In this document: positions 253 to 44,663 of the stretch, piece by piece
Layout: the number at the start of each line of letters is the position of its first letter
How positions within the stretch are numbered: the first letter of the stretch is position 1
Origin: an uncultured Acetobacteraceae bacterium
GTDB taxonomy: Bacteria > Pseudomonadota > Alphaproteobacteria > Acetobacterales > Acetobacteraceae
NCBI GenBank assembly: GCA_903907955.1
Contig: CAIVPZ010000122.1
Location: forward strand, 1 to 64,000
DNA length: 64,000 nt
Direction: 5' to 3'
Position numbers and translations under genes: made by a program
Notes under the pieces: model-generated
Databases searched by the model: none
The model's input: the letters and a program-made list of their open reading frames with translations, nothing else
What the model was told of the DNA's origin: nothing

Positions 253-274
253 GTAGGGTGGGCTTCAGCCCACC
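253..274 (+). repeat. GTAG-hairpin (REP-like), left copy
   Basis: The tetranucleotide GTAG (253-256) is followed by a perfect 8-bp stem, GGTGGGCT/AGCCCACC, with a two-base loop (257-274). The 22 bases recur exactly, inverted, at 906-927 on the other side of the transposase gene. GTAG at the foot of a hairpin is the known mark recognised by REP-associated tyrosine transposases. The transposase stop codon (265-267) lies inside this hairpin. Confidence 0.85.
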
Positions 275-905: not shown

Positions 906-927
906 GGTGGGCTGAAGCCCACCCTAC
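906..927 (-). repeat. GTAG-hairpin (REP-like), right copy
   Basis: This is an exact inverted copy of 253-274. On the minus strand it begins with GTAG and continues into the same 8-bp stem with loop GA on the plus-strand reading. Together with the left copy it brackets the RAYT gene in head-to-head orientation, like the paired palindromes of REPINs. Confidence 0.85.
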
Positions 928-13106: not shown

Positions 13107-13673
13107 TCAGACCTGCTTGATTTCCTTGTCCTTCTCGACAAGCGCGTCGTCAATACGCTTAATGTAAGAGTCGGTCAGCTTCTGCACCTCCTCGGCCCAG
13201 TGCTTCTCCTCGTCCTGGCCGATGGTGCCCTTCTTCTCGAGCGCCTTGCACTGGTCCATGCCGTCGCGGCGGACGCCGCGCACCGCCACCTTGGCACCCT
13301 CGGCATAGCGGTGGGCGGCCTTGGACAGCTCAAGGCGACGCTCGCCGGTAAGCTGGGGAATGGGCACGCGCACCAACTGCCCGTCAGCGGCAGGGTTGAG
13401 GCCAAGGCCGCAATCGCGGATGGCGACCACCACCGCATTGACCAGGCTGCGGTCCCAGACCTGCACGGTGAGCATGCGCGGCTCCGGCACCGCGATGGTG
13501 CCGACCTGCGGCAGCGGCATCTCGCTGCCATAGGCGTTGACGCGCACCGGCTCCAGCAGGCCGGGGCTGGCGCGACCGGTGCGCAGGCCGGCGAATTCGC
13601 GCCTGAGCGTCTCCACCGCGCCGTCCATGCGGCGCGTGAGATCCTGCTTCAGGCTGTTCAGTTCGGTCACCAC
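13107..13673 (-). CDS. frr: Ribosome recycling factor
   Basis: Splits post-termination ribosomes with EF-G and IF3. The 188 residues are the normal size. [25 protein letters not shown] in the N-terminal half and [23 protein letters not shown] at the C-terminus are family hallmarks, the latter in the long helix. The start is GTG at 13673 or the next GTG at 13670. GGAGGTT lies just upstream on the minus strand. A copy of the 105-base palindromic element lies between pyrH and frr, so it is transcribed inside this operon. Confidence 0.95.
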
Positions 13674-13741: not shown

Positions 13742-13850
13742 GGTCAGAGCCTGAAAAACAACCGAACTCGAAAAGGAATACCCGCTGCTGTCATTGAACT
13801 TCATTTCATCGTCGGGCGGCTTGCGGACATTCCTTTTCAAACTCTCAGGG
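13742..13850 (-). repeat. 105-base palindromic element, copy 2
   Basis: On the minus strand this starts CCTGAGAGTTTGAAAAGG and ends TTTTTCAGGCTCTGAC. The 15-base arms 13771-13785 and 13823-13837 pair throughout, with two G-U wobbles. Compared with the 43643 copy, an A-U pair has become G-C, so both sides changed. The pyrH stop codon lies within its first bases. The frame continuing past that position would read [19 protein letters not shown] then SSGYSFSSSVVFQAL. Confidence 0.85.
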
Positions 13851-14570
13851 CGGCTCGACAATGGTGGTGAACCGCCCCTCGCCACGCATGACCTGCGCGA
13901 AGGCGCCGGGCGCGTTGATGTTGAAGACGATGATTGGCAGGCGGTTCTCGCGCGCCAGGCTGATGGCGGATGCGTCCATCACCCCGAGGTCGCGCGACAG
14001 CACGTCGAGATAACCGAGCTGGTCGTAACGTTCGGCGCCCGGGTGCTTGCGCGGGTCGGCCGAGTAGACCCCGTCCACCTGGGTGCCCTTCAGCAGGGCG
14101 TCGCAGCCCATCTCGGCGGCACGCAGGGCGGCGGCGGTATCGGTGGTGAAGAACGGGTTGCCGGTGCCGGCGGCGAATATCACCACCCGCCCCTTCTCCA
14201 TATGCCGCTCCGCGCGACGGCGGATATAGGGTTCGCAGACGGTGGCCATCGGAATGGCGGATTGCACCCGTGTGGGTATGCCCCGCTTCTCCAACGCGTT
14301 CTGCGTGGCCAGGGCGTTCATCACGGTGGCGATCATGCCCATGTAATCAGCCTGCGCCCGGTCCATGCCGGAAGCGGCGGCCGAAACCCCACGGAAGATG
14401 TTGCCACCGCCGATCACCAGGCAGACCTGCACGCCCATCCCCACCACATCGGCGACATCGGTGGCGATACGCACCACCGTCTCGTTGTCGAGCCCGTAGT
14501 CACGCCGCCCCATCAGGGCCTCGCCTGACACCTTCAGCAGGACGCGCTTGTAGGTGGTGGTCGGGCTCAT
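13845..14570 (-). CDS. pyrH: UMP kinase
   Basis: Phosphorylates UMP to UDP; a hexameric amino-acid-kinase-fold enzyme. The 241 residues include [14 protein letters not shown] (ATP-binding Lys), [27 protein letters not shown] and the C-terminal [11 protein letters not shown]. The gene follows tsf after a 148-base gap with a strong hairpin. Its stop codon falls inside the start of a palindromic element that separates it from frr. Confidence 0.96.
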
Positions 14571-43642: not shown

Positions 43643-43747
43643 CTGAGAGTTTGAAAAAGAATGCCCGCAAGCCGCCGAACGATGGCGGAAAACTCAATGA
43701 TGTCAGCGGGCGTTCTTTTTCAAGTTCGATTGTTTTTCAAGCTCTGA
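43643..43747 (+). repeat. 105-base palindromic element, copy 3
   Basis: The fullest copy. Terminal repeats CTGAGAGTTTGAAAAA and TTTTTCAAGCTCTGAG match as inverted repeats at 14 of 16 positions. Inside, arms 43653-43668 and 43706-43721 form a 16-bp stem (GAAAAAGAATGCCCGC/GCGGGCGTTCTTTTTC, one G-U). A small inner hairpin CCGCC/GGCGG sits in the loop. The frame reads ESLKKNARKPPNDGG, then [19 protein letters not shown]. It ends 7 bases before the SEC-C gene start. Confidence 0.88.
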
Positions 43748-43754
43748 GGCTGCC

Positions 43755-44663
43755 ATGACGATCGACGAGACGCTGACCACCGATGATATCCTGAATGCCT
43801 TTGGGACCGTCGGCAATGTTCTGCCGCGCACCGCACTGAAGCAGGCGGCAGACCGCTGGCACGAGGTCGGTCCCGCCCTGCTCGCATTGCTGCAGGAGGC
43901 TGCCGAGGGGAGCGACCGTTCCGAACGCGCCGATTCGATCCTGTTCTTCGCCATATTTCTGATGGCGCAGATGCGCGAGACACAAGCGTTCCGGCCGCTC
44001 TGCACCATTGCCGCCGACGGCGAACGGATGTTTGACCTGATCGGCGACGGATCCACTGAGGACCTGCCCGGTATTCTCGCGCGCACGTATAACGGCGATC
44101 CGGCGCCGCTGCGGCGGTTGATCGAGGCGGAAACTGCCGATCCGTTCGTTCGCGATGCCGCCTTCGAAACACTCGCCTGGCTGACGGCGACGGGACAGCT
44201 CGACCGTGAGGAGACGGCGCGCTATCTGCGTGATCTGTATTCGACACTTCAGCCGCAGGCGGAGTCTTTTGCCTGGGTGGGTTGGCAGTATGCTGTTGCC
44301 CGGCTCGGAGTTGTCGACCTCGTGCCGCTGGTCGAGACGGCATTCCGCGATGGGAGGGTCGATCAATTCGTCCTGAGTCTCAACGATTTTCATGAGGACC
44401 TGCGCGCTGCCCAGCAGGCGACCGAGCCGACGGCGGGGTTCGACCTGCATGTCAAGGACATCGGCCGCTTCGATGATGTTGCCACCCATCTGTCCACCTG
44501 GGCGTCCTTCCAGCCGGAAAAAAAACGGAAGCCGAAATATGGGCAGGCAACGAGCGGACCACGGAGCGACCAGGCCACGCGCAACCCGTTTCCCAAGGTC
44601 GGCCGCAATGACCCGTGCCCGTGCGGCAGCGGGAAGAAATATAAGAAATGCTGCCTGCAATAG
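43755..44663 (+). CDS. DUF1186-like protein with C-terminal SEC-C zinc motif
   Basis: 302 residues. The long helical body ([25 protein letters not shown], then [22 protein letters not shown]) matches DUF1186, a HEAT-like repeat family. The tail [26 protein letters not shown] is the SecA-type zinc motif, which in SecA binds SecB and ribosomes. The start at 43755 lies within 10 bases of the palindromic element, so the element forms its leader and no clear ribosome site other than GAGG is present. Function is unknown. Confidence 0.85.

Follow-up and report, generated by a model that had tools for sequence, protein, structure and literature searches.

The window, a stretch of 64,000 nucleotides from an uncultured Acetobacteraceae bacterium, contains three copies of a short palindromic DNA element belonging to a family that is new and well supported, the CTGA-tagged palindromic mobile elements. 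The family has about 120 copies in the source genome, divided into two subfamilies (A and B). The element is inserted exactly on the 3′ side of a CTGA that is already there, usually one containing the stop codon of a gene, and recreates that target at its far end. We take it to be a non-autonomous palindromic transposable element of Acetobacteraceae that moves as a single strand by an HUH/Y1-type reaction at CTGA, and would give this reading a probability of around 0.6.

All three copies proposed in the initial annotation were found, and their boundaries can now be placed at 43643-43747 (+), 13744-13848 (-) and 5242 to approximately 5316 (+). The copy at 43643-43747 is a full-length member of subfamily A, with 105 bp comprising the target CTGA and a 101-bp element that itself ends in CTGA. 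It is 99% identical over 105/105 positions to copies on two other contigs of the assembly (C107 and C41). The left CTGA (43643-43646, +) is the target tetranucleotide, and is intergenic at this locus, lying 186 bp 3′ of an HU-like gene. It is followed by the left arm of a 22-bp stem (43647-43668, +; element columns 5-26), the right arm of which occupies 43706-43727 (+; columns 64-85). The right terminal repeat TTTTCAAGCTC (43734-43744, +) is an inverted copy of the left end GAGTTTGAAAA, and the right CTGA (43744-43747, +) is carried by the element and regenerates the target. Just 5′ of the right end the sequence AGTTCGATT (columns 81-89; 43723-43731 in the window) ranks with the best conserved segments of the element in every genus. 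The ATG of a DUF1186/SEC-C gene (43755-44663, +) lies 8 bases 3′ of this copy.

The second copy (13744-13848, -) is full length, A-like and diverged, and is located between pyrH, encoding UMP kinase (13845-14570, -), and the downstream frr, encoding ribosome recycling factor (13107-13673, -; PF01765). Its left CTGA includes the stop codon of pyrH, so that the TGA of the gene (13845-13847) and that of the element are the same three nucleotides. The best protein matches of this pyrH, with at most 90% identity, are to metagenome-assembled genomes of Acetobacteraceae and Rhodospirillales. The third copy (5242 to about 5316, +) belongs to subfamily B, starts 28 bp 3′ of the stop codon of an acyl-CoA ligase gene and lacks its right side after about column 75. 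The positions at gene borders noted earlier are therefore correct for all three copies.

The wider family was sought by pattern, DNA and covariance-model searches. In the 4.64-Mb source genome (176 contigs) the left-end pattern with up to three mismatches occurs at 118 places among the matches listed, and the right end with up to two mismatches at 101 places among those listed; the reversed control for the left end gave 0, as did the control for the right end. DNA searches using either the 43643 copy or the 5242 copy as query gave at least about 40 scored places each. We extracted and aligned 115 copies, one of them from a congener. Copies of subfamily A (containing ...TTTGAAAAAGAATGCCCGC...) are about 90% identical to each other and those of subfamily B (...TTTGTGAATGAATGCCCGC...) about 85%, compared with 73% between the two subfamilies. 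A few copies are identical letter for letter although they lie at different loci, which indicates recent movement.

Further copies beyond the three had been set as a check of the initial proposal, and a covariance-model search found the element in 13 of 200 Acetobacteraceae genomes, representing 12 of 102 genera. Three of the carrier genomes have at least 19 matches each, and the right end was counted 59 times in G158 and 52 times in G079 among the matches listed. Within the source genus the DNA search gave a single weak match, in G004, that extends to one full-length copy. Such patchy occurrence with genome-specific expansions is as expected of a mobile element. No match was found in plasmid collections, and no description of the family in the open literature searched. 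A pattern scan of a collection of genome contigs, in which the source species is probably not represented, gave no exact match. Two copies in the source genome, at L098 (C82:111910-111994) and L301 (C49:38372-38492), are left-left and right-right chimeras of subfamilies A and B. Such a pair would arise if inverted copies of the element recombined and the DNA between them was inverted, one form at each breakpoint.

The insertion unit is defined by comparison with orthologous loci that lack the element, and precise empty sites were found at four loci, in one to six relatives each. At the pyrH locus the sequence ...GTCGAGCCGTCCTGA of the nearest relative (L161) runs directly into ccgccgcgcatgac..., and in the source genome ...GTCGAGCCGCCCTGA is followed by 101 bp ending in CTCTGA and then by ccacggcgcatgac.... 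The site is empty upstream of purE in six congeners, 3′ of a NifU-like gene in five and upstream of rnhB in five, and at these three loci no relative whose junction could be aligned carries the element. The relatives so compared all have a native CTGA stop at the empty site except G006, which has TTGA at the NifU-like locus. As nearly all empty sites keep CTGA, this tetranucleotide is part of the target; insertion occurs immediately 3′ of it, and the second CTGA is brought in at the right end of the element, giving a net insertion of 101 bp. In other genera the unit is 104-106 bp. The suggestion that this is a small mobile palindrome able to settle at gene borders is thus borne out by the number of copies, the precise empty sites and the patchy distribution.

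The CTGA foot is present in 106 of 113 copies in the source genome and in 63 of 69 copies in other genomes, and the orientation of the element relative to it is fixed. Where copies lie head to tail in tandem arrays, neighboring copies hold one CTGA in common. This is explained by older copies offering their CTGA as a target to new ones. The flanks of the element show no direct repeat other than CTGA, with matches of k = 2-6 occurring at the shuffled expectation. Read relative to the element, the trinucleotide on the left is TGA 109 times out of 115 and never TCA. Insertion is therefore strand-asymmetric, contrary to what a symmetric target duplication of 3 bp would give.

The stem consists of 22 consecutive base pairs, and it is maintained through compensatory change. 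Within the source genome the observed covariation was reached by 0 of 500 shuffles, the double changes mostly separating subfamily A from B. A cross-genus comparison of 42 sequences has 94.5% of the stem cells paired, with changes on both sides at 10 pairs. Double-change cells number 74, against 24 in shuffled alignments and at most 16 in slid controls, the sequences being related and the events non-independent. Examples of compensated segments are GCCCGC/GCGGGC, GCCCTC/GAGGGC and GCCCGT/ACGGGC. Several types of base pair are found at columns 12, 16, 25 and 26, indicating repeated change. Column 16, paired with column 74, is the position previously seen as A-T, G-C or T-A in the three window copies, and the contention that pairing is kept while the sequence drifts now extends across genera. 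Two stem pairs near the foot conserve a G.U-type wobble. Over the whole stem G.T exceeds A.C by 85 to 24 cells, or 33 to 19 when distinct events are counted (p = 0.07), which is weakly suggestive of folding of the CTGA-bearing strand.

The terminal ends, of form GAGYTTGnRAA, also pair with each other (87.6% of cells). Versions of GARYTTGnRAA stand at the left end, in an internal repeat and at the right end. From subfamily A to B they all change in concert, as would be expected of sites bound by a single protein or of alternative pairings. The pair of hairpins that typifies IS200 ends is not clear here. The long stem is supported, and a small hairpin at the right end is good within the source genome and has no support across genera.

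Inverted ends and a TGA on both flanks would also be seen in a miniature inverted-repeat element (MITE) of a DDE insertion sequence of IS5/IS1031-like type, whose inverted ends would read GAGYTTG... and which would duplicate a 3-bp TGA target. The concerted change of the ends, GAGTTTGnRAA or GAGCTTGnRAA according to subfamily, is in keeping with this, and the net insertion of 101 bp is compatible with either reading. IS1031-like elements duplicate TNA. Such a symmetric target predicts TCA about as often as TGA, contrary to the counts given above, and the C before TGA is likewise fixed. Moreover, covariation is stronger in the long internal stem than in the ends, and none of the left-end and right-end matches examined belonged to a parent insertion sequence with these ends. 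We therefore think a DDE origin unlikely. The lack of duplication beyond CTGA together with the fixed orientation looks like single-strand transposition of the REP/IS200 type rather than DDE transposition.

The location of the copies with respect to genes is strongly biased. The left CTGA provides the in-frame TGA stop of the upstream gene in the sense orientation in 77 of 114 copies in the source genome, and in 51 of 69 copies from 12 other genomes. By comparison, 23 of 90 non-coding CTGA sites in the window are stops. With genes assigned by a simple codon-usage caller trained on the window, the odds ratio against other non-coding CTGA sites is about 8 to 16. A further null is given by CTGA sites lying up to 100 nt behind a sense stop, where insertion should be nearly as harmless. 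The ratio of CTGA at the stop to CTGA up to 100 nt behind a sense stop is 77:6 for the copies and 21:12 in the window (p = 3e-4). It is 70:63 in other fetched loci (p = 1e-10), a null that overlaps the loci under study. A CTGA that serves as a stop is thus preferred, by about 7- to 12-fold, to one in the next 100 nt. The interior of a gene is touched by only 2 of 114 copies. Because the gene keeps its TGA, the protein it encodes stays the same, and insertion would be nearly harmless. We infer that the excess at stop codons reflects purifying selection, a targeting preference or both, and selection against disturbing the leader of the next gene could add to it.

A stem that begins directly behind sense stops and is read in the sense orientation might alternatively be retained for its function in RNA. 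A structured 3′-UTR RNA, selected for protection of mRNA 3′ ends, attenuation or termination and spread by incidental mobility, would accord with the strong covariation of the stem, the conserved wobble pairs near the foot and the preference for the stop CTGA over CTGA up to 100 nt downstream in both comparisons. It is harder to reconcile with the empty orthologous loci of congeners, the patchiness between genomes and the unrelated nature of the genes that the element follows. The element matches no Rfam family at gathering score, and subfamily B has no U-tract. We consider this explanation doubtful. Similarly doubtful is a stop-codon-homing transposable element, one that recognizes stop codons themselves with insertion coupled to the termination of transcription or translation, for example through single-stranded DNA or RNA that might be exposed at the terminating codon. 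Given the simple gene caller, the overlapping null and possible selection on leaders, the stop-codon excess is no proof of such recognition.

Returning to single-strand movement by an HUH/Y1-type enzyme, the element would fold as a single strand and be cut and joined at CTGA in the manner of IS200/IS605 relatives and REP sequences. The mobilizing enzyme would act in trans, and might be a class-3 TnpA(Y1). In IS200 and REP systems a target tetranucleotide is combined with a subterminal hairpin (PMC6006769). Class 3 of the Y1 proteins is rare and found partly in Proteobacteria; structures that have CnGA at the foot and occur in high copy number flank its genes (Quentin et al. 2018, PMC6006769). 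By analogy, with CTGA fitting the CnGA foot, a class-3 TnpA(Y1) is the leading candidate as mobilizer.

No mobilizing gene was identified among the genomes and loci searched. Ten genomes carrying the element were searched for Y1 transposases with the PF01797 profile, which also misses some REP-associated tyrosine transposases (RAYTs), and eight gave no match; the negative genomes include G079, with its at least 19 copies of the element. A scan for HUH motifs in the fetched loci found only RAYTs. Inspection of left ends without right ends, and the reverse, revealed no autonomous parent. At L116 (C103:1-257 of the source genome) the element breaks off near column 54, where a gene resembling tyrosine recombinases begins and interrupts it. 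The recombinase DNA occurs once and runs off the end of the contig, and so provides no evidence of a parent. L303 proved to be only a truncated copy.

A true RAYT is present in the window itself (core domain 373-810, -; NF047646, E about 1e-59), and there are three full RAYT genes in the source genome. The window gene appears intact (265-924, -) and is related to RAYTs on contigs C91 and C71 (L282 and L298). A further possibility is that this RAYT mobilizes the element as one of its REPs. The gene is bracketed by a different palindrome with a canonical GTAG foot, at 253-274 (+) and 906-927 (-). This sequence, GTAGGGTGGGCTTCAGCCCACC, is a classical GTAG REP unrelated to the element, and has about 15 copies genome-wide. 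At no RAYT locus examined is the element a neighbor. Congeners in which the element was not detected carry RAYTs, and no RAYT was found in the element-bearing G079, G081, G057, G154 and G214. As the RAYTs examined have no flanking element and their presence does not follow that of the element, we rejected RAYTs as the mobilizer and regard such an origin as very improbable. In a separate observation, a RAYT-like Y1 domain at L160/L290 (G158 C42, around 14004-14327) lies in frame inside a long reading frame resembling a DNA-methyltransferase-type protein.

The initial annotation had also pointed to a peptide frame shared by the three window copies. The frame is indeed present in all three, and is open in 34 of 34 copies of subfamily A, but carries no coding signal. 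Over its whole length it is closed in 40 of 49 copies of subfamily B, and no synonymous excess was detected in any of the three frames within each subfamily (p = 0.15-0.88). In many source-genome copies a reading frame runs open as far as the terminal TGA, again without coding constraint. The common peptide frame is incidental. The proposed fusion into proteins, as in the Rickettsia palindromic elements (RPEs) that add an in-frame peptide to host proteins, is thereby refuted as a general explanation and can be set aside as extremely improbable: besides the frame and synonymy results, the net insertion of 101 bp, not being divisible by 3, shifts the reading frame, the unit is 104-106 bp in other genera, and the element overlaps stop codons rather than gene interiors. 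Isolated protein fusions are possible. At L044 (C71 of the source genome, around 16650) a second, truncated copy apparently contributes the start codon of a gene resembling those for sugar nucleotidyltransferases, with MNAHDAPDHG... fused ahead of IRQCAVLVGGLGTRLG.

The element adopts a tetranucleotide in which a stop codon is embedded, leaves it intact and restores it at the opposite end, a way of colonizing a genome with almost no harm. About 75 or more genes of one species have thereby gained a structured hairpin immediately after the stop, which provides a natural experiment in the evolution of 3′-UTRs. With its many copies and clean empty sites, the lineage is also suited to testing the poorly known class-3 HUH enzymes as movers of CnGA-tagged palindromes.

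Several known systems resemble the element. The Rickettsia RPEs are alphaproteobacterial and of 105-146 bp with a long stem-loop, but lie in frame inside proteins (PMC2229807), which the CTGA element does not. Correia elements, RUP and other bacterial MITEs share with it a length of about 105 bp, inverted ends, some 100 copies and a mostly intergenic location (PMC2229807). It differs from them in the CTGA stop-codon target and fixed orientation, and in that no parent insertion sequence was identified. Mycobacterial interspersed repetitive units (MIRUs) are likewise small mobile repeats at gene borders with minimal effect on expression; they insert at start codons with an ORF coupled to the next gene (PMC12548453), whereas the present element lies behind stops and has no constrained ORF.

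In target use the element matches the IS200/IS605 type, where insertion is 3′ of a fixed tetranucleotide, strand-specific and without target duplication. The foot of the class-3 CnGA structures includes CTGA, and about 600 copies of such structures are reported in Solibacter (Quentin et al. 2018, PMC6006769); the likeness drawn here is to the described foot. As in REP/RAYT systems, the element is a high-copy, extragenic, short palindrome with a fixed foot tetranucleotide, placed mostly at the 3′ ends of genes (PMC3733652, PMC6006769). The foot is CTGA in place of the GTAG, GTGG or CGTC of REPs, and REPs measure 20-65 nt, against 101 bp for the element, which has inverted ends and carries CTGA again at its 3′ terminus. 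REPs are mobilized by RAYT/TnpA_REP, whereas the element does not track RAYT genes. In a survey of GTAG- and CGTC-tagged REPs, GTAG REPs often provide the TAG stop of neighboring ORFs (PMC3733652). By analogy the CTGA family looks like the same principle applied to CTGA, and we place the element among REP- and MITE-like sequences as a new, CTGA-tagged member that is unusual in its placement at stop codons.
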